From contig PHEY01000004.1 in assembly GCA_002841335.1 (NCBI GenBank), positions 248,001 to 312,000 on the forward strand: a stretch of DNA of 64,000 nt, written 5' to 3'. Of this stretch, positions 29,282 to 47,113 are shown piece after piece. The notes beneath the pieces are model-generated. The model was given only the letters and a program-made list of their open reading frames with translations, made no database searches and was not told the DNA's origin. Both the position numbers and the translations under genes were made by a program. Positions within the stretch are counted from its first letter, which is position 1, and the number at the start of each line of letters is the position of its first letter. This DNA is from Actinobacteria bacterium HGW-Actinobacteria-2 (GTDB taxonomy: Bacteria; Actinomycetota; Actinomycetes; Propionibacteriales; Propionibacteriaceae).

Positions 29282-29659
29282 ATGACCAACGCACTGCACG
29301 GCACCGCGCTCACCGCCGTCCTGGGGGCGCCGGTGCCGAAGGCGACCACGATCACGCCGGGTCAGACCGAGGCCGACGTGGAGTTGTGGGCCGATGGCGT
29401 CGGGGCGTCCACCGGGTTCTGGGAGTGCACCGCCGGCACCTTCACCAGCGTGCGCGACGGCTACAGCGAGGTGTGCCAGATCGTCAGTGGCTCGGTGACC
29501 ATCCACACCGATGGCGCCGACCCGTTCACCTTGGTGGCCGGCGACACCGTGGTGCTGCCGGACGGCTGGCGTGGGTCTTGGGAAGTGCACGAAACCGTGC
29601 GCAAGCTCTACGTGATGATCCCGACCACGGCTGCTGCGTCCGCCGACGACCTCAGCTGA
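29282..29659 (+). CDS. Cupin_3 (EutQ-like) domain protein
   Basis: This 125-residue single-domain cupin carries the DUF861/cupin_3 pattern: GFWECTAGTFTSVRDGYSEVCQIVSGSVTIH, then LVAGDTVVLPDGWRGSWEVHETVRKLYV. Metal-binding His residues of classical cupins are mostly absent, as is usual in this subgroup. It is probably co-transcribed with the flavoprotein gene and may act on its product or as a stability factor; the exact role is unknown. Its stop overlaps the convergent GH3 stop by 8 nt. The ATG at 29282 follows AGGGG. Confidence 0.8.
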   Translation: MTNALHGTALTAVLGAPVPKATTITPGQTEADVELWADGVGASTGFWECTAGTFTSVRDGYSEVCQIVSGSVTIHTDGADPFTLVAGDTVVLPDGWRGSWEVHETVRKLYVMIPTTAAASADDLS

Positions 29660-31925
29660 TCTGGAAACCGGCCCGCAACTGGCGGTCCGGATCGGAGCTC
29701 GGTCCCACCCGGAGTTCGAAGGATCCCGGCTCGACGACGCGCTCACCGGCGGCAGTGACGATGCTGCAGGCGGACGCGTCCACGGCGATGGTGGCGATCA
29801 CGGTTTCGCCGGGCGGTACCGCCACCTGGGTGAACCCCTTCAGCTCCTGGTCTGCCCAGGATGCGCTGGTGACCTGGTCGCTGACGTAGGCCTGCACGGT
29901 CTCCAGCGCCGGACGCTGACCGAGGTTTCGCAGGGCGACAGTCGCTCGCAGGGTGCCGTCGGGGCCGAGGTGATCGGCCTCCAACCGGAGTTGATCGTAG
30001 GTGACCTCGCTGTAGCTCAGCCCGTGCCCGAAGGCGAACAGTGGACGCTGGGTGAGGTCGGCGTAGCGATCGCCGTGTTGGCCGCGCACCTGGTTGTAGT
30101 ACACGGGCTGCTGGCCCACATGGCGCGCGAACGACAATGGCAACCGCCCGGTTGGCTCGATCAGTCCCAGGACGAGCTCGGCGATCGCTTGACCGCCGCG
30201 CATGCCCGGGTTGAAGGCGGCGATGATCGCCGAGGCCGCCATCGCCGAGGGCGGCAAGGTGCTGGGCTTGGACTGCACCAGCACCACCACCATCGGGGTG
30301 CCGGTTGCTGCCACGGCATCGAGCAATGCCAGCTGTCCGCCCTGCAACTCCAGAGTGGCCGTCGAGCGGCCCTCGCCGGTCAGCGCGATCGAATCGCCCA
30401 CCACCACCACGGCCAGATCTGCGGCCTGCGCAGCGGCGACGGCTTCGGCTATCAGGTCGGGGTCGGGCTGAGCGGCCACGAAGATGTCGGGACGGGGCTG
30501 GCCGTCGGGGAAGTGGGTGCCCGCGGGGTCAGGGATCAGCGTGCCGATCTCGGCGCCTACGGCATGGGTGACCTGCCAGCCGACGGGTGCGATCTGGCGG
30601 AACCCGTCGAGCACGGTCTGGATCGCGGCGCGGGGCTGGCCCTCGGGAAGCCAACTCACCTGGCCGGAGTTGCCCGCCCAGTCACCCAACATTGCCTGGG
30701 GATCCTCGGCGTTGGGCCCGATTACCGCGATCGTGCGCGCCGCGTCGCTGCGGGCGCGACCGTCCGGTCCGGCGCCGAGGCCACCGTCCAGGGGCAGGGT
30801 GCCGTCGTTGGTCAGCAGCACCAGGCTTCGTCGGGCGGTCTGCAGATTGGCCGCGGAGTGCTCGGGGTTGGCGATCAGCGCTTGGCGGGCCAGATCGGGA
30901 TGGCGGGGGTTCTCGAACAGGCCGAGCCGGAACTTCAGGCGCAGGATCCGCCGCACCGCCGCGTCCAGGTCGGCCTCGGTCACGCGGCCCTCGTCCAGGG
31001 CGGCCAGGGCGCCTTCATAGAACGTAGGGGTGGTCATGATCACGTCGTTGCCGGCCTTGATGGCCACGGTGGCGGCTTCGGTGATGTCGGCGCACACCTG
31101 CTGTTCCCACACCATGCGGCCGACGTTGTCCCAGTCGGTCACCAACAGCCCGTCGTAGGACCATTCGCCCTTGAGGACGTCGTTGATCAGCCAGGTGTTC
31201 GCGGTGATCGGTACCCCGTCCATCGACTGGTAGCCGAGCATGAACGTACCCACCCCGGCCTGGGCGGCGGTGTGGAAGGGTGGCAGGAACCAGGAGCGCA
31301 GCTTGCGCCGGCTCAGATCGGCTTCGCTGGCGTCCCGCCCGCCCTGGGTCTCGGAGTAGCCGGCGAAGTGTTTGGCGCAGGCCAGCACCGAGTCGGGGTC
31401 GTCCAGGCCGGAGCCTTGGTAGCCACGAATCATCGCAGCGCCCAGTTCGCTGATCAGGTACGGGTCCTCGCCGAAGGTCTCGTTCACCCGTCCCCAGCGC
31501 AGGTCGCGAGTGATACACAGCACCGGGGAGAAGGTCCAGTGCATGCCCGTGGCTGCCATCTCGGTCGCGGTGACCCGGGCGGCCGCGGTGATCAGTTCGC
31601 GGTCCCAGCTGCAGGCCATCGAGATCTGAGTGCCGAAGATCGTGGCGCCCGGCCAGAACGAGTGGCCGTGGATCCCGTCGTCGGCGACCAGCAGGGGGAT
31701 ACAGAGCCGCGTTTGGCCAACCAGGTGGTGGGCTTGCCCCATCAGCTCCGGTGAGGTGTGCAGGATGCTGCCGGCATGCCGACGAAGAATCGCCTCGTCG
31801 AGGTCGCCGCGGGCGTCGAGCATCAACATCTGGCCGACTTTCTCCTGCGGCGTCATCCGCGAGAGCAGGTCGTCGACGCGATCCTCGACGGCGGCGTCGG
31901 CATCGAGGTAGAGGGCAGGGCGCAT
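29652..31925 (-). CDS. Glycoside hydrolase family 3 (beta-glucosidase/beta-xylosidase type)
   Basis: This 757-residue GH3 enzyme has the (beta/alpha)8 domain, the alpha/beta sandwich domain and a C-terminal fibronectin-III-like domain (LRNLGQRPALETVQAYV). The nucleophile is predicted as Asp264 in LLVTDWDNVG, and KHFAGYSETQGGRD is the substrate-binding loop. No signal peptide is visible, so it cleaves imported oligosaccharides or glycosides in the cytoplasm. It is third in an operon after the esterase and aldolase genes, 39 nt after the aldolase, with AAGGAG before its ATG. Specificity cannot be told. Confidence 0.92.
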   Translation of the reverse strand: MRPALYLDADAAVEDRVDDLLSRMTPQEKVGQMLMLDARGDLDEAILRRHAGSILHTSPELMGQAHHLVGQTRLCIPLLVADDGIHGHSFWPGATIFGTQISMACSWDRELITAAARVTATEMAATGMHWTFSPVLCITRDLRWGRVNETFGEDPYLISELGAAMIRGYQGSGLDDPDSVLACAKHFAGYSETQGGRDASEADLSRRKLRSWFLPPFHTAAQAGVGTFMLGYQSMDGVPITANTWLINDVLKGEWSYDGLLVTDWDNVGRMVWEQQVCADITEAATVAIKAGNDVIMTTPTFYEGALAALDEGRVTEADLDAAVRRILRLKFRLGLFENPRHPDLARQALIANPEHSAANLQTARRSLVLLTNDGTLPLDGGLGAGPDGRARSDAARTIAVIGPNAEDPQAMLGDWAGNSGQVSWLPEGQPRAAIQTVLDGFRQIAPVGWQVTHAVGAEIGTLIPDPAGTHFPDGQPRPDIFVAAQPDPDLIAEAVAAAQAADLAVVVVGDSIALTGEGRSTATLELQGGQLALLDAVAATGTPMVVVLVQSKPSTLPPSAMAASAIIAAFNPGMRGGQAIAELVLGLIEPTGRLPLSFARHVGQQPVYYNQVRGQHGDRYADLTQRPLFAFGHGLSYSEVTYDQLRLEADHLGPDGTLRATVALRNLGQRPALETVQAYVSDQVTSASWADQELKGFTQVAVPPGETVIATIAVDASACSIVTAAGERVVEPGSFELRVGPSSDPDRQLRAGFQIS

Positions 31926-31964: not shown

Positions 31965-32735
31965 TCAGGCGCGGCGGGCCGCGTCCGTGGCGCTGCGCAG
32001 TCCGGCGGCGAGCACGTCCACATCGGTGAGGATGGTGAGCCAGTCGGCTCCGCGGGACGCCCACTCGCGGGCCATCTCCACGTCCGAGCAGTGCAGGCCG
32101 ATCGGCATGCCGGCAGCCTTGGCGGTCTCCACCACCGACGTCAACAGCTCATCGACAGCCGTGCTGGTGCGGTAGGTCTGTCGACCCAATCCACACGACA
32201 GGGCCAGGTCATTGGGGCCGATGTACAGCGCGTCGACGCCGGGGGTGGCGATGATCTCCTCCAGGTTCGCGACCGCGTCGGCGGTCTCGATCATCACCAC
32301 GCACATCACTTCGGCGTCGGCCTGTTCGGGGGCAGCGATCGGGCGCGCAGACCACAGCGGTCCCCACGAGCGGATGCCGGTGGGTGGGAAGCGGCAGGCC
32401 TGGGCTGCGGCGGCGGCTTCTGCGGCGTTGTTCACCATGGGCACCACGACTCCGCTGGCACCGGCGTCCAGGGCCCGCATGATCTGTCCGGGGTCGTTCC
32501 AACGGACCCGCACCAGGGGGATGCGCCCAACCGTCCGCATGGACTCCAGGACCGGCGGCAAGGTGGCGACGTCGGCGTACCCGTGCTGGGCGTCGACGCA
32601 CACCACATCGGTCTGCGAGGCGGCGACCAGCTCGGCGACCAGGGGATCGGCGCACACCGACCATGCCCCGAAGGCGGGATCGCCGTGGCTCCAGCAGGTG
32701 CGCAGCCGGGTGCTGTCGGGAGCGGGTTGGGTCAT
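31965..32735 (-). CDS. HpcH/HpaI family 2-keto-3-deoxy sugar-acid aldolase
   Basis: This 256-residue class II aldolase family protein splits 2-keto-3-deoxy acids into pyruvate and an aldehyde; RhmA (2-keto-3-deoxy-L-rhamnonate) is the best-known sugar member. It shows DVVCVDAQHGYAD, the Arg in PLVRVRWND, VVVPMVNNAAEA, MIETADAVANLEEI (metal Glu) and GVDALYIGPNDLALS (metal Asp). Aldehyde identity is unknown. The start overlaps the upstream esterase stop by 4 nt. Together with the SDR, lactonase and dehydratase on the opposite strand it would complete a non-phosphorylative sugar pathway. Confidence 0.88.
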   Translation of the reverse strand: MTQPAPDSTRLRTCWSHGDPAFGAWSVCADPLVAELVAASQTDVVCVDAQHGYADVATLPPVLESMRTVGRIPLVRVRWNDPGQIMRALDAGASGVVVPMVNNAAEAAAAAQACRFPPTGIRSWGPLWSARPIAAPEQADAEVMCVVMIETADAVANLEEIIATPGVDALYIGPNDLALSCGLGRQTYRTSTAVDELLTSVVETAKAAGMPIGLHCSDVEMAREWASRGADWLTILTDVDVLAAGLRSATDAARRA

Positions 32736-33697
32736 GGGGCTACCACCTTGTTGAGGAAGTCGAGTTGTTTGACGAAGTGACCAGGACCGCCGCCTTCGTG
32801 GCCGGCGAACGGATAGGGCTCTATCTGATGCGGGCCCGCCCAGCGGTTGAACGCGGCGAAGACCGTCGACGGCAGGCAGACCGAGTCCATCAGGCCGACC
32901 GAGAACAGCGCCGGTGCGGTGGCCCGCGTCGCGAAGTGCACCGCGTCGACATAAGACAAGGTGTTGAACACCTGGTCGACCCGGCTCGGGTGGACGGCCA
33001 GATAGCGCCGCACTTCGGCGTAGGGGTCCTCGTCGCTGTGCTCCACGCTGTGGCGCCAGTGGCTGCCAAAAGGCACATCCGGCATGGCCGCGACGATCCC
33101 GTCGGCCAGTCCGGCGGCCGCGATCGCGATGCCGCCACCCTGGCTCACGCCGGTGACGGCCAGCGGGCCGACCTGGGGGAGAGCGGCCAGCGTGTCGATC
33201 AAGCGGACCGCGTCGGTGTAGACCCGGCGGTAGTAGTAGTCGTGGGGCGACTCGAGACCTCGCGTGGCAAAGCCGGCCGCAGAGGTGCCGTGACCCACCG
33301 GATCGCCGGTGACGCCACCGGATCCCCACCAGGCGCCCTGGCCGCGGGTGTCCATGAAGGCGTAGCCGTAGCCGGCGGCCACCCAGGGCAGATGTTCGTG
33401 GGGGAGGCCGCGTCCGCCGCCGTAGCCGTTGAACCCGACGACGGTGGGGAGGTTGTCGCCGGCTCCGCGGGGGCGCAGCAGCCAGGCGGCGATGGGATGA
33501 CCGCCGAAGCCGGCGTAGCGCAGGTCGGTCACCTCGACATCGCGCAACTCGGGCGCGGCCGGACGTAGCTCGGGTTCCCACGCGGCGGCGCGCGCCTCGG
33601 AGAGCGTTGTACTCCAAAACGTGTCGAAACCTGTCGGTTCGCTGATCTGGGGTCGATACTCAAGCAAGTCGGACAGGGGCATGTCGACCAGTGCCAT
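32732..33697 (-). CDS. Acetyl-xylan esterase / cephalosporin-C deacetylase family (CE7-like)
   Basis: This 321-residue alpha/beta hydrolase matches the AXE1/CE7 family, which removes acetyl groups from xylo-oligosaccharides and other small esters. It has RGQGAWWGSGG (the family RGQ motif), the nucleophile Ser in GVSQGGG, and the catalytic His region AGHEGGG near the end. No signal peptide is seen. The ATG at 33697 is chosen for AGGAGG 6 nt upstream; a longer read would start within the intergenic region. It is first in the esterase-aldolase-GH3 operon, divergent from the GntR gene. Confidence 0.9.
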   Translation of the reverse strand: MALVDMPLSDLLEYRPQISEPTGFDTFWSTTLSEARAAAWEPELRPAAPELRDVEVTDLRYAGFGGHPIAAWLLRPRGAGDNLPTVVGFNGYGGGRGLPHEHLPWVAAGYGYAFMDTRGQGAWWGSGGVTGDPVGHGTSAAGFATRGLESPHDYYYRRVYTDAVRLIDTLAALPQVGPLAVTGVSQGGGIAIAAAGLADGIVAAMPDVPFGSHWRHSVEHSDEDPYAEVRRYLAVHPSRVDQVFNTLSYVDAVHFATRATAPALFSVGLMDSVCLPSTVFAAFNRWAGPHQIEPYPFAGHEGGGPGHFVKQLDFLNKVVAP

Positions 33698-33739
33698 CAG
33701 GTTCCTCCTGGTGACGGGGACTACGGGACAACTCATTGG

Positions 33740-33763
33740 GTGACTTGTCCTCTGACGAGTTAG
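33740..33763. promoter_or_regulatory. Operator 1 of the sugar-acid locus
   Basis: The core ACTTGTC-CTCT-GACGAGT (33743-33760) is a 7+4+7 palindrome with one mismatch. Its reverse complement is identical to operator 2 (41701-41724) at 22 of 24 positions. It lies between the divergent esterase and GntR genes, about 60 bp before the regulator start. Confidence 0.8.
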
Positions 33764-33821: not shown

Positions 33822-34550
33822 ATGGCAATAACCCTGTCGAGCCGGACCAAGGTCAGCGAGGACCTGGCAATACTGCTGGCCGAGCCGCTCGCTAAGGGCG
33901 AGGTGGCCGCTGGAGACCCCATTGCCTCCGAGGTCGAGCTGGCCGAGACCTACGGCGTCAGTCGGCCAGTGGCCCGCGAGGCCGTGCAAATGCTGGCGTT
34001 GGCCGGAATGCTGCTGGTGCAGCACGGAAAGCGCACCACCGTCCGTCCTGAGCGGGAGTGGAACGTCCTTTCTCCCTCGGTGCAGATCGCCTTTGAGCGC
34101 GCCGGCCGCGGTGACGAACTGCGTCGTCAGCTCTACGAAGTGCGTCTGGTCCTGGAGAGCGCGTGCGCGGGATTGGCCGCCCATCACGCCTCGGCGGAGG
34201 AGCGCGACCACGTCCGCACCATCATCGAGCGCACCACCGAGCTCGCCAGCTCTCACGGCAGCATGGAACGTTTCTTGGAGTTGGATCGGCTCTTTCACGG
34301 GCTGCTGTATTCGCTCACCGGAAACCTGCCGTTGAGCCAAATCGCCCGCGAAGTTCAGGGCTACCTGTCGAGTTCCTGGGAATCCTCCAAGCTCACCGAG
34401 CCCGAAATGGCGGAGTCTGCGCGGCAGCACGAGGTGATCGGCCAGGCCATCATCAGCGGTGACACCGAAGCGGCCACGAAGGCGATGGACCACCACATTC
34501 GGTGGGCGGCCACCATCGAGCGGGTCGACTCCGAGCCTGCCGGGTCGTGA
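33822..34550 (+). CDS. FadR/GntR-family transcriptional regulator of the sugar-acid locus
   Basis: This 242-residue regulator has an N-terminal winged helix (ASEVELAETYGVSRPVAREAVQMLALAGML) and a C-terminal all-helical FCD ligand domain with the expected acidic and His positions (LDRLFHGLLYSLTG, ARQHEVIGQAIISGD). FCD ligands are usually carboxylates, which fits a sugar-acid intermediate as inducer. The ATG at 33822 follows GGGAG at a normal distance. The gene is first in a 4-5-gene operon and overlaps the SDR gene by 4 nt. A palindrome matching this family's site style overlaps its own promoter and recurs at 41701. Confidence 0.9.
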   Translation: MAITLSSRTKVSEDLAILLAEPLAKGEVAAGDPIASEVELAETYGVSRPVAREAVQMLALAGMLLVQHGKRTTVRPEREWNVLSPSVQIAFERAGRGDELRRQLYEVRLVLESACAGLAAHHASAEERDHVRTIIERTTELASSHGSMERFLELDRLFHGLLYSLTGNLPLSQIAREVQGYLSSSWESSKLTEPEMAESARQHEVIGQAIISGDTEAATKAMDHHIRWAATIERVDSEPAGS

Positions 34551-35335
34551 GCGCGCTGAACAGCGCCGTTGTCACCGGTGCGGCATCGGGAATCGGACGT
34601 GCGATCGCCACTCGGCTGCACCAGGACGGACGCGCTGTGGTGTTGGTGGACGTCGATCCGGACGCGCTGAGCACGGCGGCAGCCGAACTGGGTGCCGCCG
34701 TCGCGACCGTCGTCGGTGACGTGGCCGACCCGTCCACCCACCATCACGCCCTCGCTGCGGCAGTCGAACTGGGCCATCTCGACGCGTGGGTCAACTGCGC
34801 CGGCATCACCCGCAGCCACCCCTTGCCGACGCTGAGCCCCGCCGATGCCGGCCCGATCATCGATGCCAACCTCTACGGCACCTTGTGGGGCACCCGGACT
34901 GCGGTGGCCCACTGGGTGGGCTGCGCAGAGCCCGGCGCCATCGTCAACATCTCCTCGGTGCACGGGCGCCGGGCCTACCCCGACCATGCGGTCTACGAGA
35001 TGACCAAGGCGGCGATCGAAGCCCTCACCCGCAACGTGGGCGTCAGCTATGCCGCCGCCCGGATCCGGGCCAATGCGGTCGCGCCCGGCGCGATTCGGAC
35101 CCCGGCTCTGGACGACTCCATTGCTTCGGCGGTCGATCCGGTCGCTGCCGCCGCCGAGTTGACCGAGTTCATCCCGGCCGGACGACTGGGCGACAGTGCA
35201 GAAGTGGCCGCCGTGGTCGCCTTCCTGCTTTCCGACCAGGCCAGTTACCTCACCGCGCAGACCATCGTGGTCGACGGCGCGATGACCGCCCACATCGGTT
35301 TTGATCCCGATCCGAACGCGAAGCGACCCCAATGA
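34547..35335 (+). CDS. SDR dehydrogenase of the sugar-acid operon
   Basis: This 262-residue classical SDR has TGAASGIGRA at the NAD(P) site, NCAGI, the Ser of ISSVHGRR and the YEMTK catalytic motif. By position it would oxidise a sugar at C1 to the lactone, or a sugar-acid hydroxyl. It starts with GTG overlapping the regulator's stop (GTGA) and its own stop overlaps the dehydratase start (ATGA), so the three are translationally coupled. Substrate is inferred only from neighbours. Confidence 0.88.
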   Translation: MSALNSAVVTGAASGIGRAIATRLHQDGRAVVLVDVDPDALSTAAAELGAAVATVVGDVADPSTHHHALAAAVELGHLDAWVNCAGITRSHPLPTLSPADAGPIIDANLYGTLWGTRTAVAHWVGCAEPGAIVNISSVHGRRAYPDHAVYEMTKAAIEALTRNVGVSYAAARIRANAVAPGAIRTPALDDSIASAVDPVAAAAELTEFIPAGRLGDSAEVAAVVAFLLSDQASYLTAQTIVVDGAMTAHIGFDPDPNAKRPQ

Positions 35336-37062
35336 ACACCCCGCAACTCCGCAGCGCCGCGTGGTTCGACGGTGATGACGAAGTCGCAGTATTGCACCGC
35401 GTCGCCGCCGGAATCACCGCCGAGGACCGCGGACGTCCCGTCATCGGCATCGCCGACACCAGTTCGCAACTCAACCCGTGCCAGGCAGGCTTCGCCGCGG
35501 TGTTGGAGCCGCTCGAACGCGGCATCCGTGACGGCGGCGGGGTGCCGCTGCGGTTCCCGGTGATGTCACTCGGCGAAGACCTGATGAAACCGTCAGCGAT
35601 GCTCTACCGCAACCTGGTGGCGATGGAGCTTGAAGAGCAAGTACGAGCTCACCCGCTCGACGGTGTGGTCTTCCTCGCCAACTGTGACAAGACAGTGCCG
35701 TCGGCGTTGATGGCGGCGGCCAGCACTCAGCTGCCGTCGCTGCTGTTGCTCGGCGGCGCGCGTTCGGCGCCGCTGTTTGCCGGGCGCCGACTGGGCTCGG
35801 GCACCGACCTGTGGCGTGCGCTGGAGAACCGGCGGGCGGGCACCCTCGATGACGCCGGCTGGCAGCAACTGGAAGAGACCCTGGCCTGTGCCGGGGGTGG
35901 ATCGTGCAACACGATGGGCACCGCCTCGACGATGGCGCTGGTCAGCGAGGCGCTGGGGATGGCCTTGCCCGGATCAACCGGCTGCGCGGTGGGCTCTGCC
36001 GAGCTGGCGGACCTGGCCTATCGCACCGGACGAATCGTCGCCGCCTCAGCGGCTGCGGGGGCTCCCGGAGCCGACCAGGTGATGACCGAGGCCGCCGTGG
36101 CGAACGCGCTGCGCCTGGTGGCGGCAGTCGGTGGCTCGACGAATGCGGTGATTCACCTGGCCGCGATCGCTGGACGCCTGGGTCACCACCTGAACCTGGC
36201 GCAGATCGATCGGCTGTGGGCCGAGGTGCCGCTGCTGGCCGATGTCGAGCCCTGCGGCAGCCAGCTGATCCACGACTTCCACGACGCCGGTGGCCTGGCC
36301 AGTGTGGCCGCAGCACTCCTCCCGCACCACCTGCTCGACCCTGGTGTGGTGCTCGCCGACGGGCGGAGCCTGGCCGACCTGGCCGCGACCGCCCCGTCCG
36401 ATCAGACGGTGATCCGCAGCTACGGCGATCCGGTGCTTCCTGCGCCGGCACTCGTGGTGGTCTCCGGCAGCCTTGCCCCCGACGGAGCCGTGCTGAAGAC
36501 CGCCGCATCCAGCCCCGAGTTGTGGCAGCACACCGGGCCGGCGGTGGTGTTCGACGACTACGCCGACATGCGCGCCCGCCTGGACGATCCCGAACGAGTG
36601 GTCTCACCGGACGCGGTGCTGGTGGTGCGCAACTGCGGACCGGTGGGCGTTCCGGGCATGCCCGAGTGGGGCATGGCCCCGATCCCGGCAGCGCTGGCCG
36701 CAGCCGGTGTGCGTGACATGGTGCGGGTCAGTGACGGACGAATGAGCGGCACCAGCTTCGGCACCGTGGTGCTGCACGTTGCACCTGAAGCCGCCGTGGG
36801 CGGGCCGCTGGCCCTGGTCACTGACGGTGATCTGATCGAACTCGACGTTGCCGGACGGCGCCTGGAGCTGCTGGTCGACGCTGCCGAGTTGGAGCGCCGC
36901 CGCGCTGCCTGGCAGCCCGCACCTGATGAGCATCTGCGTGGTTGGCCGCGGCTGTATCGCGACCACGTCAGCCAGGCCCCGAGCGGCTGCGACTTGGACT
37001 TCCTGGCCAGCCCGACCGCGGCGTCCCGCCGCTTCGTCCCGCCGGTGGTGGGCCGCTCATGA
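35332..37062 (+). CDS. IlvD/Edd family dehydratase, probable sugar-acid dehydratase
   Basis: This 576-residue Fe-S dehydratase converts a 2,3-dihydroxy acid to the 2-keto-3-deoxy acid. Two cluster-ligand Cys are visible in FLANCDKTVPS and AGGGSCNTMGTASTM, and the C-terminal RMSGTSFGTVVLHVAPEAAVGGPL is the family active-site region. It could be an arabinonate-, xylonate-, galactonate- or rhamnonate-type enzyme; branched-chain DHAD is unlikely in this setting. The ATGA overlap with the SDR gene indicates the same operon. It lies upstream of a DapA-family lyase and a lactonase. Confidence 0.9.
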   Translation: MNTPQLRSAAWFDGDDEVAVLHRVAAGITAEDRGRPVIGIADTSSQLNPCQAGFAAVLEPLERGIRDGGGVPLRFPVMSLGEDLMKPSAMLYRNLVAMELEEQVRAHPLDGVVFLANCDKTVPSALMAAASTQLPSLLLLGGARSAPLFAGRRLGSGTDLWRALENRRAGTLDDAGWQQLEETLACAGGGSCNTMGTASTMALVSEALGMALPGSTGCAVGSAELADLAYRTGRIVAASAAAGAPGADQVMTEAAVANALRLVAAVGGSTNAVIHLAAIAGRLGHHLNLAQIDRLWAEVPLLADVEPCGSQLIHDFHDAGGLASVAAALLPHHLLDPGVVLADGRSLADLAATAPSDQTVIRSYGDPVLPAPALVVVSGSLAPDGAVLKTAASSPELWQHTGPAVVFDDYADMRARLDDPERVVSPDAVLVVRNCGPVGVPGMPEWGMAPIPAALAAAGVRDMVRVSDGRMSGTSFGTVVLHVAPEAAVGGPLALVTDGDLIELDVAGRRLELLVDAAELERRRAAWQPAPDEHLRGWPRLYRDHVSQAPSGCDLDFLASPTAASRRFVPPVVGRS

Positions 37063-39015: not shown

Positions 39016-40287
39016 TCAGCGATCCCACAAACCTCCACCGAAGAGGAGTTCGTCGGTGCGACCCCACACCTGCTGGGCGTAATCGATGCCAGCCTGCGTG
39101 GGACGGACGTCGCCGAGGATGCTCGGCCAGGGATCATCCCCGGTCCGAGTGGTCGGGTCGGGGGAGAAGTGGTCGCTTGCCATCGCGGCCAGTGCAGCCT
39201 TGTCGTGCAGGTCCGGGATGGTGATCGCGCCGGACCCCTCCAGTGCCGATCGGTAGGCCAATGCGCCCACCAGAGCCATCTGCACGCCCTTGTAGACGTC
39301 GAAGTAGGGCTGCTTGCCGGTGCGGATCGCCTGAGCGAACTCGTAGTTCATGAAGAAGTCGCCGCCACCGTGGCCGGTGGCTCGGGCCTCGGCACCGAAA
39401 GCGGCGAACTCCGGCTCGTAGCTGAGTTCGGTGGGCACGCCGGCCGGTTTCTCGAACGGCTCGCGACGCACCCGCAGGTGCTCCTCGAGCGGGCCGCGTC
39501 CGTTCTCCATCAGGCCACGGTTGCCGACGATTCGCACGTAGTTGCCGTGGCCGCGCAGGTCGTACTGCAGCAGCTTCACCAAGGCGCCGTTGTCCATCTG
39601 CAGCACGATCATGGAGGCGGTGTCGCAGCGGCGCACGGTGAGCGCCTTGTTGGCGTCGTCGGGGTCGTGCGGAATCACGAAGCCGGACACCTTCACCGGC
39701 GTGGTGTCGGTGATGTACATCACCGGAGCCAGCGAGTGCGAGCAGTAGTAGGTGACCGGCAGCCAGTTGCGCCAGTGGTCGGGACCCATCGCGATCGAGT
39801 TGAACAGGTGGGCCGAGATCGGGTGGACGTACTCGCCCTCGCCGTAGCGGAAGTTGCCGATGGCGCCTTCGGCGTAGAGCCGACGCATCTCCTGGTTGTA
39901 GGCCATGAAGGGGTAGTTGTCGGCGAACATGTAGATCAGCCCGGACTCCTCGACCGCCTGCACCAAGGCCGCGCCTTGGGCGGGGGTGAAGCTCGCTGCG
40001 GTTTCGCTCATCACGTGCTTGCCGGCCTTCAGCGCCTTGATGGCGAAGTCGGAGTGCTCGTGGAAGTAGTTGGCCAGGACCACGGCGTCCATGTCGTGGG
40101 TGAGGAACTCGTCGAAGTCGGTGTAGGTGGCCACTTGGTGCTTGGCGCCGAACTCGACCAGGCGCTCCTCCCAGGTGTCGCACAGGGCGACCAACTCCAT
40201 TCCGACCACCGGGGTGGTCTGTTGGATGAACGTCTGGCCGCGGCCGAGGCCGACCACGCCGACGCGGATGGGTGCGGGTTGGACCAT
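39016..40287 (-). CDS. Gfo/Idh/MocA family NAD(P)-dependent oxidoreductase
   Basis: This 423-residue protein has the N-terminal Rossmann domain (RVGVVGLGRGQTFIQQT) and the long C-terminal alpha/beta domain; SETAASFTPAQGAAL sits where the EKP motif would be, with Glu-Thr-Ala in place of Glu-Lys-Pro. The Lys of that motif is normally catalytic, so substrate handling may differ. Family members oxidise or epimerise sugars, inositols or modified sugars. It follows the ceramidase-like gene by 1 nt and shares its operon. AGGAG stands 7 nt before the ATG. Role: probably processing of the sugar released by the hydrolases. Confidence 0.87.
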   Translation of the reverse strand: MVQPAPIRVGVVGLGRGQTFIQQTTPVVGMELVALCDTWEERLVEFGAKHQVATYTDFDEFLTHDMDAVVLANYFHEHSDFAIKALKAGKHVMSETAASFTPAQGAALVQAVEESGLIYMFADNYPFMAYNQEMRRLYAEGAIGNFRYGEGEYVHPISAHLFNSIAMGPDHWRNWLPVTYYCSHSLAPVMYITDTTPVKVSGFVIPHDPDDANKALTVRRCDTASMIVLQMDNGALVKLLQYDLRGHGNYVRIVGNRGLMENGRGPLEEHLRVRREPFEKPAGVPTELSYEPEFAAFGAEARATGHGGGDFFMNYEFAQAIRTGKQPYFDVYKGVQMALVGALAYRSALEGSGAITIPDLHDKAALAAMASDHFSPDPTTRTGDDPWPSILGDVRPTQAGIDYAQQVWGRTDELLFGGGLWDR

Positions 40288-40288: not shown

Positions 40289-41662
40289 TCAGGACTCCTG
40301 AATCGTTGGTTGCAGAGATGGCGAGGTGGCGGTGACGCCGAGGGCTGTGAGGACGGCCTCGGCTACGAGTTCGAGGCTGCCGGGGCCGGCCGGGGTTTGC
40401 GCGACGGTGTAGCTGGGACGGGCGTAGGCCTCGCGCGGCGGGAGGTAGAACGCGCCGGCGCCGTTGGTGAGGTTGGCCACCAGGACCGGGCGCGGGGTGA
40501 GCGCCTGGCGCAGCGTGCGGGCCAGCCAGGAGTAGGCCTCACCGGGGTGAGCGACCAGCACCAGGGCGCCGAGTTCCCACAGCCACACCGGGTAGGGCAC
40601 CTCCGGCTGGTCGCCGGCATTGCGTCCGACCAGTTCGGCGCGGGCTTCACGCTCGGCGCGGACATGTTCGGGCAGGTCGGCGGGCAGGGCCAAGGGTTCG
40701 GTCTTGCGGGGGAGGCGGAGGTCGAGACGGCGCACCCGGATGTGGTTGTCGGGTGGTGTGGGCTGCTCGTCCCAGACGCCGAGGGGCGCTCCGGATTCGA
40801 CGATGGAGGTGGGTACCAGCCGCTGGTCCGGTGCCGGCATCAGCTCCAGCGTGGCCAGGACGGCGTGGCCCAGCGCGCGTCCGGCGCGATCGGCGTCGGC
40901 GACCCCGCTGCGGTACTGGCGGGCCGGGGCGAGTTCTCCGGAGGCGCCCTGCAAGAAGACGGTGGGTGCGCCGGCGTAGTGGGCGGCGATGAGTTCACGC
41001 AGTGCGCCGACGTAGTCCGGCGAGATGAGCTGGTTGGCCCAACCCAGCACGGTCGGATGGCAGGCGTAGGAGACCAGGACGCCGATCACCGCGCCAGTCT
41101 CGTCGCTGACCCGTCCAACCAGGACGGTGTCGTCGGCGGCGATGTTCGGGTCGCGACCGACGACCGCCCGTCCATCGCGGGTCTCGTCGCGATAGGCGGC
41201 CAGAGTGCTGCGTCCGGTGTCCCAGGTGAGGATCGCCGGCCGGGCCTCGGCGATGGCTGTTACGGCGGCGGTTGCAGCCTGTTCGCCGATGAGTTCGAGG
41301 TGTTCGGCGAGATGCTCGCCGCCGGGGAGGCCCACTTGTCGCAGGCAGGGTGCCTGGCCGGAGTGGGTGTGGGTGGAGTGCAACAGCACCTGGTCGGTGG
41401 TCAGCTGGCAGCGCTCAGCGATGCCGTGACGAACCGCTCGCTCGTCGTCGGCGTCGGGCCATTCGCAGACGTCCAGGCTCACCACGACCAGCTGGTGTCC
41501 GTCGGCGTTGATGGCCACCGCGGTAGCAGTGAGGGGACGGTGGACGCCGACTGCGGTCTCGGCCTGGGACGCTCCCCACAGCTTCCAACGGGTCCCGGCA
41601 GGTGGGGTGATATCGCGGCTGGCGAAGCCGATGAGAGCGTGTAGATCGCCGGTTGCGCCCAC
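40289..41662 (-). CDS. Neutral/alkaline ceramidase-like hydrolase
   Basis: This 457-residue protein resembles the neutral/alkaline non-lysosomal ceramidase family. It opens with LIGFASRDITPPAGTRW, then LHSTHTHSGQAP (His residues likely metal ligands), SYACHPTVLGWANQLISPDYVGALRELI and NGAGAFYLPPREAYARPSYT. Without a signal peptide and within a sugar locus, a true ceramidase role is doubtful; amide or ester hydrolysis of an imported conjugate is more plausible. The GTG at 41662 is chosen for AAGGAGG 6 nt upstream; a longer read would run through the operator. It is first in a two-gene operon with the Gfo gene. Confidence 0.82.
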   Translation of the reverse strand: MGATGDLHALIGFASRDITPPAGTRWKLWGASQAETAVGVHRPLTATAVAINADGHQLVVVSLDVCEWPDADDERAVRHGIAERCQLTTDQVLLHSTHTHSGQAPCLRQVGLPGGEHLAEHLELIGEQAATAAVTAIAEARPAILTWDTGRSTLAAYRDETRDGRAVVGRDPNIAADDTVLVGRVSDETGAVIGVLVSYACHPTVLGWANQLISPDYVGALRELIAAHYAGAPTVFLQGASGELAPARQYRSGVADADRAGRALGHAVLATLELMPAPDQRLVPTSIVESGAPLGVWDEQPTPPDNHIRVRRLDLRLPRKTEPLALPADLPEHVRAEREARAELVGRNAGDQPEVPYPVWLWELGALVLVAHPGEAYSWLARTLRQALTPRPVLVANLTNGAGAFYLPPREAYARPSYTVAQTPAGPGSLELVAEAVLTALGVTATSPSLQPTIQES

Positions 41663-41691: not shown

Positions 41692-41720
41692 AATTACGGG
41701 CTAACTTGTCAGAGGACAAG
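41692..41720 (-). promoter_or_regulatory. Promoter of the ceramidase-like operon
   Basis: On the minus strand TTGTCC (41720-41715), a 17-bp spacer and TAATTT (41697-41692). The -35 lies inside operator 2, the same geometry as the GntR promoter at 33745-33773. Confidence 0.7.
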
Positions 41721-41724
41721 TCTC
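41701..41724. promoter_or_regulatory. Operator 2 of the sugar-acid locus
   Basis: The core ACTTGTC-AGAG-GACAAGT (41704-41721) is a perfect 7+4+7 palindrome. It lies between the divergent ceramidase-like gene and the ABC importer operon and matches operator 1 at 22 of 24 positions when inverted. Confidence 0.85.
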
Positions 41725-41829: not shown

Positions 41830-43413
41830 GTGAGCCCGCAGTCATCCACTACGTCCAAACGAAACGTCTGGACGGCCCCGAAGACTCAGCAGCGGTTGCT
41901 CGCTGCCGTCGCCGGAGCAGCCCTCTTGATGGTCTCGGCCTGTTCGGGCGAAGCGCCCGCCAGTTCACCGAGCGCCACCAGCGCAGCCCCCTCGGTCTTT
42001 ACCGTGGGTACCAGCGCTTCCATCAGCACCCTCGATCCGAACAAGGCAGTCGATCAGGCCCAGCTGCAGATTCTCAACCTCATCGGCGGCACCCTGACCG
42101 TCTTCAACGCTGACTACTCCGACGTTGAACCGGGCCTGGCCACTTCCTGGGAAGTGAGCCCCGATGGTCTGAGCTACACCTTCCAGATCGCCAGCGGGCT
42201 GAAGTTCTCCGACGGCTCGCCGCTGACGGCCAAGGATGTCGCAGCCACGCTCGACTGGGTCATCAACGACAAGGGATCCTGGAACGCCGGCATGGTGGCT
42301 CATTGGGCCAGCGCCAAGCAGACCGGTGACTCCACCGTGGTGCTGAAGCTGCGCGATCCGCAGCAGTCGGTGCTGTCGCTGCTGGCCGATCCCGAGATCG
42401 GGACGATCATGCCGGCCAGCAAGCTGGGCGACGAGAAGTTCTACGTCAAGCCGATCTCGGCCGGCGCGTACATGCTCAAGTCGTTCGACCCGACCAACGG
42501 CAATGCCGACCTGGTGCTGAACCCGAACTGGACCGGCCCGGTTCCGGCCGTTCCGGAGATCAAGTTCGTCTACATCCAGGACTCCAGCACCCGCGGCGTC
42601 CAGCTCAAGGGCGGCTCGATCGATCTGGCCGAGAACATCCCGCCGAACACGCTGACGCAGTTCACCGGCGATGTCGAAGGCTCGGTCACCCCGGCCTTCG
42701 GTGGCAACTTCTTGATCCCCAACGACAAGAAGGGCATCCTCACCGATCCCAAGATTCGCCAAGCGGTGTCGATGGCCATCGACCGCAATCAGATCAGCGA
42801 AGTGATCTGGGCCGGTCAGGCCAAGCCGCTGTACCAGTTCTGGCCGAACACCTCCAAGCTGTCGCACCCGGTGCTGCCGGAGAAGGTGGACGTCGAAGGT
42901 GCCAAGGCGCTGTTGGCCGGTACCAAGTGCGAAAGCGGTTGCGAGCTGAAGTTCTCCTTCATGCCCGGACAGCAGAGCACCGAGGATCTGTCGGCCTTGC
43001 TGACCGAGGATCTGGCCAAGATCGGTATCACTTTCACCGCCCAGCGCGTTGAGGGTGGCGAAATGGGCACCCTGCAGAGCGACTTCGGCTTCGACTTCAT
43101 CAGCTCCGGTCTGTACGACTACGTCGATCGGGCAGACATCCTGCTCGCTCAGGGCGTGCAGTCCGACGGCGGCACCAACGCCCTGTTCTCCGGCTACAAG
43201 TCGGCAGAGATGGACGCTCTGATCGCCAAGGCCATCTCGGCCACCGGTGATGAGCGGGCCGCGCTGATGCAGCAGATCAATGAGCAGTTCGCCAAGGACA
43301 TGCCGCTGATTCCGCTGGTCGACTGGGCGTTCGTGAACGCCAAGAAGACCAGTACCAGCCAGTGGGTGACCTTCGAACCGACCGGGTGGCTCCGCGTGGC
43401 CACAAAGGGCTAG
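41830..43413 (+). CDS. Extracellular solute-binding protein family 5 of the sugar-acid locus
   Basis: This 527-residue lipoprotein (lipobox LLMVSACSG, Cys38) is a family-5 binding protein like OppA/DppA. The body has SDGSPLTAKDVAATLDWVI and RQAVSMAIDRNQISEV. Family-5 proteins bind peptides, but also nickel and oligosaccharides, so the ligand here is likely the glycoside cut by the GH3 enzyme. The GTG at 41830 follows AGGAGG by 8 nt. The leader holds a CCGCGG-CCTTTT-CCGCGG hairpin near 41798. A 39-bp palindrome comes directly after its stop, which probably raises its expression above that of the permeases. Confidence 0.92.
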   Translation: MSPQSSTTSKRNVWTAPKTQQRLLAAVAGAALLMVSACSGEAPASSPSATSAAPSVFTVGTSASISTLDPNKAVDQAQLQILNLIGGTLTVFNADYSDVEPGLATSWEVSPDGLSYTFQIASGLKFSDGSPLTAKDVAATLDWVINDKGSWNAGMVAHWASAKQTGDSTVVLKLRDPQQSVLSLLADPEIGTIMPASKLGDEKFYVKPISAGAYMLKSFDPTNGNADLVLNPNWTGPVPAVPEIKFVYIQDSSTRGVQLKGGSIDLAENIPPNTLTQFTGDVEGSVTPAFGGNFLIPNDKKGILTDPKIRQAVSMAIDRNQISEVIWAGQAKPLYQFWPNTSKLSHPVLPEKVDVEGAKALLAGTKCESGCELKFSFMPGQQSTEDLSALLTEDLAKIGITFTAQRVEGGEMGTLQSDFGFDFISSGLYDYVDRADILLAQGVQSDGGTNALFSGYKSAEMDALIAKAISATGDERAALMQQINEQFAKDMPLIPLVDWAFVNAKKTSTSQWVTFEPTGWLRVATKG

Positions 43414-44459
43414 TGAGCTCGCACACCGTGACGGTGGTTGGCGCCGAGGAATCCTCGGCGCCAACCACCGGTGGGGTCAAGCCGGAGCGAGGTTCCCGGC
43501 ATGGACGTCATCGCGGACTGGTTCGAGCCCTCGCCAAGCGACTTGGCCAGATCGTCTTCGTTCTGGTGGGAGTCGTGGTTGTCACCTTCAGCATGCTGCA
43601 CGTCATCCCCGGCGATCCGGCCCGACTGATCCTGGGCAAGTTCGCCAACCCGGAATCGGTTGCGACCCTGCGCCACACCCTGGGTCTGGACCTTCCGCTC
43701 ACCGAACAGTTCACCAACATGGTGGTTGGTCTGTTCCAGGGCAACCTGGGAACCTCACTGGTCTCCCGCACCCAAACGGTCAACGATCTGATCTGGCCGG
43801 CCTACGCCAACACGATGAGTGTGGTGGCAGTCTCGTTAGTGATCTCGTTGGTGATCGGCATCTCGGTGGGCATCATCACCGGCATCCGCCGCAATGATGG
43901 CCTCGATCGAGGATTGCAGGCACTGATGGTGATCCTGCTGTCCACGCCGCCGTTCATGTTCGGCATGGTGCTGTTGCTGGTGGCCCTGCGGACGAAGATC
44001 GCCCCGGCCGGTGGCTGGAACGGCACCCCCATTGACTCGTTGAAGTACATCTGGCTCCCAGCTCTGGCGCTGTCGATCGCCTTGGCGCCGGTCATCGCCC
44101 GCTCACTGCGGCAGTCGATTCGAGAGACCTTCGCCCAAGACTTCGTCGAGGCCGCGATCGCCCGAGGCCTGCCGCGCCGCCAGGTGGTGCTACGGCACGT
44201 CCTGCCCAACAGCCTGCTGCCGATTGTCGGCCTGATCGGCTACAGCCTCGGCGGACTGATCGGTGGGGCCGTGGTGGTCGAGATGGTGTTCAACATTCCC
44301 GGCATCGGCTCTCGGATGATGGCCGCCGTCGGATCGCGTGACTTCCCCGTGGTTCAGGGCATCGCCTTGGTCTCGGCGGTCACCGTCATCTTCTTCAATG
44401 CCCTGGCCGATGCCGCCTACTGGCTGATCGACCCTCGTACCCGAACGGCCGGATCGTGA
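43413..44459 (+). CDS. ABC transporter permease, DppB type, of the sugar-acid locus
   Basis: This 348-residue permease has the DppB plan: TM1 (IVFVLVGVVVVTFSMLHVIPGDPAR), a loop, then five helices with the EAA loop FAQDFVEAAIARGLPRRQVVLRHVLPN. The GTG at 43413 shares its first base with the preceding TAG stop. About 36 residues precede TM1, more than usual, and the 39-bp palindrome lies inside this extension (SSHTVTVVGAEESSAPTTGG). No later ATG/GTG in frame precedes TM1, so the extension seems real, but a CTG start near 43521 cannot be excluded. Confidence 0.88.
   Translation: MSSHTVTVVGAEESSAPTTGGVKPERGSRHGRHRGLVRALAKRLGQIVFVLVGVVVVTFSMLHVIPGDPARLILGKFANPESVATLRHTLGLDLPLTEQFTNMVVGLFQGNLGTSLVSRTQTVNDLIWPAYANTMSVVAVSLVISLVIGISVGIITGIRRNDGLDRGLQALMVILLSTPPFMFGMVLLLVALRTKIAPAGGWNGTPIDSLKYIWLPALALSIALAPVIARSLRQSIRETFAQDFVEAAIARGLPRRQVVLRHVLPNSLLPIVGLIGYSLGGLIGGAVVVEMVFNIPGIGSRMMAAVGSRDFPVVQGIALVSAVTVIFFNALADAAYWLIDPRTRTAGS
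43432..43470 (+). other. 39-bp near-perfect palindrome at the binding-protein/permease junction
   Basis: A 19-bp arm (CGGTGGTTGGCGCCGAGGA) is followed by one base and its exact complement. In RNA it forms a very stable hairpin 18 nt after the binding-protein stop. Such hairpins commonly shield upstream binding-protein mRNA and lower downstream expression. Here it is inside the permease reading frame. Confidence 0.8.
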
Positions 44460-45373
44460 CGACCACAACCCCCAAGACTCCCGCTCCGGCGCTACGCCCC
44501 AGCCCGCACTGGCTCCGACTGCCCCGGTGGAGCTTCGCGCAACGCCGTCCCCGGAGTGCGCTCGCGCTCGGCCTAGGACTGCTGGCGCTGATCGTGCTGG
44601 CCACGATCTTCGTCCCGATGCTGTCGCCGTACACAGCCACCGCGATCTCCGGCAAGCCGCTGATGCCGCCATCACCGCAGCACCTGTTCGGCACTGACAC
44701 GGCCGGACGCGACGTGTTCGTCCGTACCTGGTTGGGGGGCCGCAACGACTTGATGATGGTGGTCCTGGTGGTACTCGGATCCTCGATCATCGGCACCATG
44801 GTGGGGGTGGTGGCCTCGATGAGTTCCCAGATCACCGACTCGGTCCTGATGCGTCTCACCGATGCGCTGATCTCCTTCCCCGGCATGATCATCGTGATGG
44901 CCATCGCCCTGGTCTTCTCCGGCATCGGCGAAGTGGGGCCATTCCCTCGCGGAGCACTCCCGGCGGTGATCGCGATCATCGCGATCAACTGGGCCTCCTA
45001 CACCCGACTGGTTCGAGGTGAGGCGCTAAGTCTGCGCTCGCGGGACTTCATTACCGCAGCGACGCTGCTGGGGTACTCCAAGACGCGCATCATCGTGCGG
45101 CACTTGTTGCCGAACCTCGCCACGACGGTGGTGGCCTACATGGTGGTGGATGCCATCGTCGCGGTGGTCACCATCGCCGGTATGCCGTTCATCGGTGCCG
45201 GTATTCAACCGCCGGCACCCGAATGGGGTTCGCTGATGCTGGCCGGCTCAACAGTGCTGTACTCGGCCTGGTGGGTGACAGTCATGCCCGGCCTGGTCGT
45301 CACGGTGTACGGCATCGCCTTGTCGCTGATCGCTGACTCGCTGCTGGCCGAAGTCGATGGAGGTGCGCGATGA
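44456..45373 (+). CDS. ABC transporter permease, DppC type, of the sugar-acid locus
   Basis: This 305-residue permease has an N-terminal cytoplasmic tail, TM1 (ALALGLGLLALIVLATIFVPML), a loop with LFGTDTAGRDVFVRTWLGG, and the EAA loop LRSRDFITAATLLGYSKTRIIVRHLLPN. It pairs with the DppB-type permease. The GTG start overlaps the previous stop (GTGA), and the next gene overlaps its own end (ATGA). The order binding protein, B, C, D, F is the classic Dpp/Opp arrangement, unlike the transporter at 16.5-22.3 kb. Confidence 0.92.
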   Translation: MTTTTPKTPAPALRPSPHWLRLPRWSFAQRRPRSALALGLGLLALIVLATIFVPMLSPYTATAISGKPLMPPSPQHLFGTDTAGRDVFVRTWLGGRNDLMMVVLVVLGSSIIGTMVGVVASMSSQITDSVLMRLTDALISFPGMIIVMAIALVFSGIGEVGPFPRGALPAVIAIIAINWASYTRLVRGEALSLRSRDFITAATLLGYSKTRIIVRHLLPNLATTVVAYMVVDAIVAVVTIAGMPFIGAGIQPPAPEWGSLMLAGSTVLYSAWWVTVMPGLVVTVYGIALSLIADSLLAEVDGGAR

Positions 45374-46350
45374 GTTCCGATCTGCTCACGATCACCGGTC
45401 TGGGCGTGGAGATCGCCGGATTGCCGGTGCTCTCAGAGGTCTCGTTGGCGCTGCCGTCCCACGGTGTGCTGGGGCTGGTGGGGGAGACCGGTTCGGGCAA
45501 GTCGTTGACCTGCCGGGCGCTGATGGGGCTGTTGCCTCGGATCGGCGGCAAAGTGAGCGACGGTTCGATCACTTTCGATGGCACCACGTTGACCGGTTTG
45601 GACGAATCAGGCTGGGCGCGGGTGCGCGGACGTCAGATCGGTTTCGTGCCTCAAGCCTCGCTGAACGCGCTGGATCCGGTGATGACCGTCGGCGAGCAAC
45701 TGCGGGAGGCTGTGTCCCACCTGGATTCCGGCGCGGAAGTGAAGGCCCGCTGCTTGGAACTGCTTGAGCTGGTGCGCCTGCCGCAGCCACAGGAAGTGCT
45801 TCGGCGCTACCCCCATGAACTGTCTGGCGGCATGCGCCAACGAGTGATGATCGCGCTGGCCCTGGCCGGACGTCCGCGATTGTTGGTGGCCGATGAGCCC
45901 ACCACGGCCCTGGACGTGACCGTGCAGAAGGCCATCTTGGAGGTCTTCGCCGATCTGCGAACCTCCACCGGAATGAGTCTGTTGCTGGTGACCCACGATC
46001 TGGGCGTGGTGGTCGACGTCGCCGACAGCGTGGCGGTGATGTACGGCGGCACGGTGGTGGAGTTCGGCTCGGCTCGCGAGGTGATGACCAACCCGTCACA
46101 CCCCTACACCGCAGCCCTGCTGGGCGCCCGCCCGGCGACCCGCACCCTCGGCGAGAGACTCACCACGATTCCTGGTGTTCCGGCAGTGCCTGGTCAATGG
46201 CCCGACGGCTGTCGATTCGCGCCCCGCTGCGCCTTCGCCCGAGACGAATGTCGTGCCGTCCAGCCGGCCCTTCTGGCAGTCGACGAACACCGGGCGCGGG
46301 CTTGCCACGGGTGGCTGGGTACGAGCGAGGAGGCCGTCGTCCATGTCTGA
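45370..46350 (+). CDS. ABC transporter ATPase, DppD type
   Basis: This 326-residue ATPase has Walker A GETGSGKS near residue 38, Q-loop GFVPQASLNALDPV, signature LSGGMRQRV and Walker B LLVADEPTTALD. The C-terminal oligopeptide-transporter tail with a Cys cluster (DGCRFAPRCAFARDEC) is present. It works as a heterodimer with the next gene. The start overlaps the permease stop by 4 nt. Confidence 0.93.
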   Translation: MSSDLLTITGLGVEIAGLPVLSEVSLALPSHGVLGLVGETGSGKSLTCRALMGLLPRIGGKVSDGSITFDGTTLTGLDESGWARVRGRQIGFVPQASLNALDPVMTVGEQLREAVSHLDSGAEVKARCLELLELVRLPQPQEVLRRYPHELSGGMRQRVMIALALAGRPRLLVADEPTTALDVTVQKAILEVFADLRTSTGMSLLLVTHDLGVVVDVADSVAVMYGGTVVEFGSAREVMTNPSHPYTAALLGARPATRTLGERLTTIPGVPAVPGQWPDGCRFAPRCAFARDECRAVQPALLAVDEHRARACHGWLGTSEEAVVHV

Positions 46351-47113
46351 AGTCTTGTTGGAAGTCGTTGATGCCGAGTTCCGCTACGCCCGAGGACTTC
46401 CTCCGGCCGCGACCGGAATCAATCTGCAGGTGCGGCCGGGAGACTCGGTGGGCATCGTCGGTGAGAGCGGTAGTGGCAAGACCACGGTCGGCCGCGGGCT
46501 GGTGGGCTCGCTGTTCCCGTCCTCGGGCTCGGTGCTGGTGCAAGGTCGAGGATGGAAGGGGGTGCGGCGCCGTGACCCGGTGCGCCGCATCGTTCAGATG
46601 GTCTTCCAAGACCCGTACGCGTCGCTGAACCCGATGTTGTCGGCCCAAGCCACCGTGGCCGAGGTGATCCGGGTCTGGGACGGAGCCAAGCCCAGTGTGG
46701 CGGCGAGTCGCGCCGAACAGGTGCTGGCCGAGGTGGGTCTGACCGGTGAAGTGATCAGGCGACGTCCGGCACTGCTGTCGGGCGGACAGCGTCAGCGCGT
46801 CGGCATCGCCCGGGCACTGGCCTGCGAGCCGCAGGTTCTCGTCGCGGACGAGCCGACCTCGGCGTTGGACGTGTCCGTGCAAGCCAATGTGCTGAACCTG
46901 TTGCTTGATCTGAAGGCGAGCCGCGGATTGGCGCTGGTGCTGATCTCGCACGACCTTTCGGTCGTGGATTACCTCACCGATCGTGCGCTGGTGATGCTGA
47001 ACGGTGAGGTGGTCGAGCACGGGGACACCCACACCCTGCTGCAGAACCCGAGTCATGAGTACACCAAGACCCTGATCAGCTCGATCCCGGGAAGCTCGCT
47101 GGCGAACGCCTGA
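46343..47113 (+). CDS. ABC transporter ATPase, DppF type
   Basis: This 256-residue ATPase has Walker A GESGSGKT, VFQDPYASLNPM at the Q-loop, signature LSGGQRQRVGIARAL and Walker B VLVADEPTSALD. It lacks the usual C-terminal Cys-rich extension, making it shorter than most DppF. The ATG at 46343 overlaps the DppD stop by 8 nt and follows GAGGAGG. It is last in the importer operon; no strong terminator follows within the 135-nt gap. Confidence 0.92.
   Translation: MSEVLLEVVDAEFRYARGLPPAATGINLQVRPGDSVGIVGESGSGKTTVGRGLVGSLFPSSGSVLVQGRGWKGVRRRDPVRRIVQMVFQDPYASLNPMLSAQATVAEVIRVWDGAKPSVAASRAEQVLAEVGLTGEVIRRRPALLSGGQRQRVGIARALACEPQVLVADEPTSALDVSVQANVLNLLLDLKASRGLALVLISHDLSVVDYLTDRALVMLNGEVVEHGDTHTLLQNPSHEYTKTLISSIPGSSLANA

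Follow-up and report, generated by a model that had tools for sequence, protein, structure and literature searches.

The 64,000-nucleotide stretch of DNA analysed here (the window; contig PHEY01000004.1 of Actinobacteria bacterium HGW-Actinobacteria-2, positions 248,001 to 312,000) carries a 17.5-kb gene island at 29652-47113, and one of its genes encodes a ceramidase-like protein. We propose that this protein represents a widespread cytosolic subfamily with the ceramidase fold. In Actinomycetota, Bacteroidota, Planctomycetota, Verrucomicrobiota and Armatimonadota its members are probably zinc-dependent hydrolases dedicated to the non-phosphorylative breakdown of sugars, with a sugar lactone, ester or amide as substrate in place of ceramide. 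For the island as a whole we favour, on the strength of its sequence, one inducible accessory regulon for the oxidative, non-phosphorylative use of one carbohydrate-derived solute.

The ceramidase-fold protein and its genomic neighbours

The gene at 40289..41662 (minus strand) encodes a hydrolase of 457 amino acids that matched Pfam family PF04734 (Ceramidase_alk) at E 1.9e-12 and, by sequence, Pseudomonas neutral ceramidase weakly (E 2.4e-4). Its AlphaFold model (predicted local distance difference test, pLDDT, 90.3; predicted template modelling score, pTM, 0.91) was compared with solved structures using Foldseek. The ceramidase chains 2zxc, 2zws and 4wgk were matched at E 3e-24 to 4e-21 with template modelling (TM) scores of about 0.68, the best being 2zxc (E 3.1e-24, TM 0.68, 18% identity). 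As the first unrelated fold followed at E 1.3e-4 and TM 0.14, the catalytic fold is that of the ceramidases. The zinc-ligand positions H98, H202, E375 and Y406 are kept in a phmmer alignment to 2zws; they were placed using ligand roles and numbering that we take to be those of the Pseudomonas enzyme. Among 27 aligned sequences H98, H202 and Y406 are invariant and E375 is present in at least 90%.

Neutral and alkaline ceramidases are secreted or membrane-attached and carry a C-terminal Ig-like domain. The window protein is predicted to have neither feature: it is about 190 residues shorter than 2zws and its model contains no further C-terminal domain. A crude hydropathy rule allowed a hydrophobic N-terminus in one of 80 subfamily loci and gave none in the other 79. 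Applied to more distant ceramidase-family proteins, the same rule, equally crude as a signal-peptide test, gave a candidate signal peptide at 9 of the 31 control loci that could be used (10 of the 41 control loci lacked a usable alignment and were left out). The subfamily is predicted to be cytosolic. PF04734 covers it in part: in 15 member-carrying genomes the member's place was matched in 11, above the cut-off in 8, and missed in 4.

The genomic neighbourhood was analyzed in the best 80 of at least 571 relatives from a scan of GTDB genomes; phylum names for the genera in these loci are in part those we presume from general knowledge. A sugar-acid dehydratase gene lay within 10 kb in 69 of the 80 loci; among those whose 10-kb flanks are complete the count was 52 of 55. 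These dehydratases were of the enolase-superfamily type A (38 loci) or type B (27 loci) or of the IlvD type (7 loci), some loci having two. Genes for short-chain dehydrogenases/reductases (SDR) were found in 50 loci, and relatives of the window SDR with 44-50% identity adjoin the ceramidase-like gene in many actinobacterial loci. The typical order in Bacteroidota is GntR regulator, class III aminotransferase, dehydratase A, SDR, ceramidase-fold gene and SSF symporter, and in Microbacterium it is ceramidase-fold gene, SDR, dehydratase B, SDR and then an FAH hydrolase. Leifsonia shinshuensis has a compact cluster (locus L108) of Dpp importer, ceramidase-fold gene, SDR, IlvD and DapA. Five further members with 40-45% identity were found in the host family outside the genus, three of them with a dehydratase close by: IlvD and DapA lie nearby in G081, dehydratase A and an aminotransferase in G098 and G109. 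Importer, dehydratase and downstream steps vary by clade, and the ceramidase-fold gene stays with SDR and dehydratase genes. This constant partnership fits an enzyme at the entry of an oxidative pathway. Since the subfamily often accompanies such pathways, and does so in about five phyla, its substrate is probably not ceramide but some small derivative of a sugar, be it a lactone, an ester or an amide.

Two sets of control loci were built around other ceramidase-family genes and searched with the neighbour queries used for the subfamily. A dehydratase was detected in 1 and an SDR in 2 of 22 loci from the host family (control 1), and each was detected in 2 of 20 loci from 7 subfamily-carrying genomes (control 2). 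These control matches were weak (24-30% identity). Control 2 comprises 20 of 28 non-subfamily matches and 7 of 15 genomes, with 13 loci coming from G204 and G207. The search found the ceramidase-family gene itself again in 20 of 22 and 12 of 20 control loci, respectively, and two control loci (L141, L173) are below 20 kb. As the neighbour queries were partly drawn from subfamily loci, detection was favoured there over the controls.

Several observations weigh against a general link with sugar-acid catabolism. The 80 loci are the top-scoring ones and not a random sample, and the Fisher test for 69/80 subfamily versus 2/20 control loci (p 1.6e-10) includes loci of one genus, which are not independent. 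A dehydratase was not found in 11 of the 80 loci; 8 of these have a short flank, and L096, L111 and L121 have full flanks. L096 is the host-family genome G050, where an SDR alone was detected in 38 kb, and the remaining host-family member (G049) sits on a contig of just 4.9 kb. Locus L123 carries Gln at the E375 position. Transporter neighbours are not specific, since SSF symporters occurred in 6 and AbcD-like ATPases in 10 of the 22 loci of control 1. Finally, of the 80 loci 1 had a GH3 gene, 1 an HpcH gene and 2 a CE7-like gene, so that it is the shared operator and congener synteny that tie these three window genes to the ceramidase-fold enzyme. Judged by this distribution, they are additions in the version of the window's genus.

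Other features recurred around the subfamily. A HemL-like class III aminotransferase gene is present in 30 of the 80 loci, in most of them beside the enolase-type dehydratase (e.g. L066, L077, L079 and L097 of Bacteroidota). The enolase-type dehydratase is strongly conserved in Bacteroidota, at about 76-80% identity to the L098 reference. In four Larkinella loci (L079, L083, L087, L093) the gene run also includes a sugar MFS transporter and a dioxygenase of the PhyH type, a hint that the sugar is a modified one.

While the family name suggests a ceramidase and lipid metabolism, the gene neighbourhood suggests sugar-acid catabolism. Once the substrate of the ceramidase-fold proteins is fixed, an enzyme step could be assigned in many bacteria of soil and water, the lipid reading would be corrected, and the sugar that these clusters serve would probably become apparent.

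Operators, gene content and distribution of the island

A first-pass annotation of the window had described a self-contained catabolic island of four operons with two operators. Both operators are real. The 22-bp pattern GACTTGTCCTCTGACRAGTTAG has exactly two matches with at most 3 mismatches in the whole 2.92-Mb assembly, one in each divergent gap, and the reversed pattern, used as a control, has 0. Operator 1 (33742..33763, plus strand) separates the esterase and GntR operons, and operator 2 (41701..41722, minus strand) separates the ceramidase-like and importer operons. The site is a 7-4-7 palindrome, perfect in the second copy. Its 18-bp core is identical at both sites in the congeners G139 and G145; in G152 the second operator is present with the same core and the contig ends before the site of the first. 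Because the operator occurs only in the two divergent gaps that feed the four operons, the 17.5 kb looks like one unit and the operons look like one regulon. We infer that the island's own GntR protein binds both operators.

Every gene class named in that annotation was recovered by Pfam within 29652-47113, including GntR with FCD, the DHDPS (DapA) family, SMP-30/SGL, SBP_bac_5, two BPD permeases and two ABC ATPases, and the genes are arranged as the four operons described. Operon 1 runs leftward from the CE7-like esterase through the HpcH/HpaI aldolase to GH3. The CE7-like acetyl esterase (AXE1; 32732..33736, minus strand; Pfam AXE1 E 7.7e-91) is matched in congeners over 319 of 334 residues and may perhaps start at 33697. 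The HpcH/HpaI class II aldolase (31965..32735, minus strand, 256 amino acids; Pfam; start corrected to ATG 32735) has 8adq as its top solved chain (E 1.3e-46). The GH3 beta-glycosidase (29652..31925, minus strand, 757 amino acids) has the Pfam GH3 N, C and Fn3-like domains and scored 1279 bits with the NCBIfam exo-beta-1,3/1,6-glucosidase model, below its cut-off of 1330; inspection by eye revealed no signal peptide.

Operon 2 runs rightward. A GntR/FCD (FadR-type) regulator (33822..34550; Pfam GntR, FCD) is followed by the SDR (34547..35335; Pfam), presumed to be a sugar 1-dehydrogenase, an IlvD/Edd sugar-acid dehydratase (35332..37062; Pfam; 668 bits to NF004784, cut-off 539), the DapA-family enzyme (37100..38023) and an SMP-30 family lactonase (38020..38898; Pfam SGL E 1.1e-44), all on the plus strand. 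Between this operon and the convergent operon 3, a 13-bp inverted repeat seen by eye (ACAGCCGCTCCGG / CCGGAGCGGCTGT, 38964..39012) is probably a terminator. Operon 3 runs leftward from the ceramidase-like gene to a Gfo/Idh/MocA oxidoreductase (39016..40287, minus strand; Pfam; 96-97% identity in three congeners). For the ceramidase-like gene the most likely start is GTG 41662, preceded by a AAGGAGGT site; a TTG start at 41719 would overlap the operator.

Operon 4, rightward, comprises the five genes of a Dpp-type importer, all on the plus strand: a solute-binding lipoprotein (41830..43413; Pfam SBP_bac_5; start corrected to GTG 41830; 91-92% identity in congeners) with the motif LMVSAC, which we take to be lipobox-like, permease B (43428..44459, start approximate), permease C (44456..45373), ATPase D (45370..46350) and ATPase F (46343..47113; ATG 46343 inferred as start, from Pfam and the translation). 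Permeases B and C and ATPase D were assigned by Pfam, and in the congener comparison ATPase F was detected only as a second match to ATPase D. Sugar dehydrogenase, lactonase, sugar-acid dehydratase and an enzyme processing 2-keto-3-deoxy acids are thus encoded together at the family level. Read from these families, the island specifies non-phosphorylative sugar-acid catabolism together with uptake by a Dpp-type importer, as the first reading of the sequence had held.

The block is present in the same order in G139 and G145, and in G152 it is cut by the contig end. Including the window's genome, 4 of 30 genomes of the genus carry the island; a fifth, G140, has a weak ceramidase-family match and no more. 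To the left of the window island, 27882-29659 encodes a DAO-type FAD oxidoreductase (Pfam) and then a cupin-like protein (by eye), and the oxidoreductase forms the left island border in G139 and G145 as well. To the right, two small Thr/Lys/Pro-rich proteins (47250-48058) lie upstream of ApbE and an NADH-dehydrogenase-51K/RnfC-like gene (48065-50705). G141 and G143 have about 3.9 kb between the FAD-oxidoreductase and ApbE genes of the flanks, and no island genes were found there. Their place is taken by about 3.5 kb of other DNA (L159 3321-6845; same place in L160), and ApbE and part of the second small gene are kept at the same spot. By this distribution the island is an accessory unit, and its position may be a variable site. 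The shared operator type, the block kept in congeners and its absence between the same flanks in two others agree with the self-contained character first ascribed to it. Five tRNA genes lie within 4.2 kb upstream of the island (23601-27835).

As we picture the regulon, the GntR protein would keep all four operons repressed as long as a sugar-acid ligand is absent. A small glycoside or acylated sugar would enter through the Dpp-type importer, and the cytosolic GH3, CE7-like and ceramidase-fold enzymes would hydrolyse it. Oxidation of the sugar by the SDR would give a lactone, to be opened by SMP-30 and perhaps by the ceramidase-fold enzyme too, and IlvD/Edd would form the 2-keto-3-deoxy acid. 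This acid could be dehydrated by the KdaD-like DapA-family enzyme or cleaved by HpcH/HpaI to pyruvate and an aldehyde.

Possible substrates and reactions

We wondered what else the ceramidase-fold enzyme might do in such a pathway. It is possible that it acts as a cytosolic deacylase, which would release the sugar, ahead of its oxidation, from an imported N- or O-acylated compound. Known members of the ceramidase fold, to which the model was matched by Foldseek, hydrolyse amides, an acetyl-esterase-like gene belongs to the same regulon, and Dpp-type importers often take conjugates. However, families that handle fatty acids or acyl groups were not among the 30 neighbour proteins scanned with Pfam. 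A further point against deacylation is the SSF symporter encoded directly downstream of the ceramidase-fold gene in 29 of the 80 loci, SSF symporters being a transporter type for small solutes.

Somewhat doubtful is a role as the sugar lactonase of the pathway, in which the enzyme would open the lactone that the SDR produces. This role would suit the position beside SDR and dehydratase genes and the gene run of L108, where no hydrolase gene other than the ceramidase-fold gene was recognised from the importer to DapA (there is a GH114 gene at a greater distance). SMP-30 was without a match in 30 of the 58 loci whose flanks reach 9 kb or more and matched in the other 28, in single-sequence tblastn maps that under-detect SMP-30, and G201 (L071) had no SMP-30 match genome-wide. 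The count of 30 is too high, since by coordinates an SMP-30 gene lies about 6 kb off in L085. Moreover, 16 of 17 genomes chosen for having no nearby SMP-30 do encode SMP-30 proteins (in G198, G202 and G203 about 10-21 kb away on one contig with the ceramidase-fold gene), all 17 encode Amidohydro_2 proteins, and the window island has an SMP-30 of its own. The lactonase role is attractive for compact clusters and weakened by SMP-30 genes about 6-21 kb off and in the window island.

The DapA-family enzyme bears on the choice of pathway. Its nearest solved chains are the L-2-keto-3-deoxyarabonate (KDA) dehydratases 7c0c (the best) and 3fkk. Gln137 stands at the place of Gln143 of the Azospirillum enzyme (AbLPDHT), instead of the proton-shuttle Tyr of the aldolases, and Lys166-x-Glu168 aligns with Lys171 and the catalytic Glu of KDA dehydratase. 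Gln137 and Lys166-x-Glu168, and with them the Schiff-base lysine, were found in 11 of 11 aligned rows, which stand for 9 distinct proteins (two genomes appear twice), all from loci with a ceramidase-fold gene. According to PMC9795676, KDA dehydratase works without aldol cleavage and has Gln143 where aldolases carry Tyr. For Cupriavidus KdaD, PMC13398020 gives a catalytic Glu (E174) and two further ones, E200 and E201. The latter pair is replaced in all 11 rows, by Thr-Gly (7), Ser-Gly (3) or Thr-Ala (1). The window enzyme may therefore dehydrate rather than cleave. Two unrelated pyruvate-forming lyases, as initially claimed for the island, are unproven because the DapA-family protein has Gln and Lys-x-Glu instead of the aldolase Tyr; HpcH/HpaI, whose nearest chains are 8adq-type aldolases, is the safer pyruvate-former. 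With its dehydratase-like active site lacking the Glu pair, the DapA-family clade is a second enzyme of interest for its reaction.

These features invite the reading of a plain Weimberg-type island for L-arabinose or another pentose, in which IlvD is L-arabinonate dehydratase, the DapA-family protein is KDA dehydratase and 2-oxoglutarate semialdehyde is the product. We consider this unlikely. The top solved chain of the DapA-family protein is indeed a KDA dehydratase and IlvD scored 623 bits with the L-arabinonate dehydratase model, but this is under the model's cut-off of 882. In addition, the Glu pair that PMC13398020 describes for the Cupriavidus enzyme is replaced in every row, and no aldehyde dehydrogenase was seen in the island (6 Aldedh matches lie elsewhere in the genome).

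The sulfoquinovose Entner-Doudoroff pathway was set aside, as GH31 and sulfonate transporter families are absent among the Pfam matches of the island genes. That pathway also uses SDR, SMP-30, IlvD and HpcH. Use of a glycolipid or ceramide-like glycoside, the candidate first put forward, is suggested by the Pfam family name and the neutral ceramidase fold and is very improbable, given an enzyme predicted to be cytosolic, about 190 residues shorter than 2zws and 18% identical to its nearest structure, an SSF symporter as neighbour in Bacteroidota, and sugar dehydrogenases and sugar-acid dehydratases as the usual neighbours (the latter near in 69 of 80 loci).

Relation to known systems

The pathway logic and all the folds are already known. 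Among the papers listed in searches of an open-access library, none turned up that links a cytosolic subfamily with the ceramidase fold constantly to the catabolism of sugar acids. The initial statement that no known intracellular pathway joins a ceramidase-like hydrolase with these enzymes is uncontradicted by the papers listed; as for genomes, the combination recurs.

The island resembles the non-phosphorylative pentose and hexose pathways (Dahms, Weimberg and diketo-hydrolase), as set out in PMC9795676, in having SDR, SMP-30, IlvD/Edd and DapA-family genes in one cluster. Compared with these pathways it adds a ceramidase-fold hydrolase, Gfo/Idh, HpcH/HpaI, GH3 and a CE7-like esterase at the same operator pair. 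With neutral ceramidase (2zws/2zxc from Pseudomonas, 4wgk from human) the window protein has the catalytic fold and the zinc-ligand positions in common. It differs in its predicted cytosolic location, its length (457 versus about 640 amino acids), its 18% identity and its place within a sugar-acid island. The DapA-family enzyme, finally, shares with the Azospirillum KDA dehydratase 7c0c the Gln in place of the aldolase Tyr and the Lys-x-Glu motif. Unlike KdaD it lacks the Glu-Glu pair, and the 9 distinct relatives compared have the same form.

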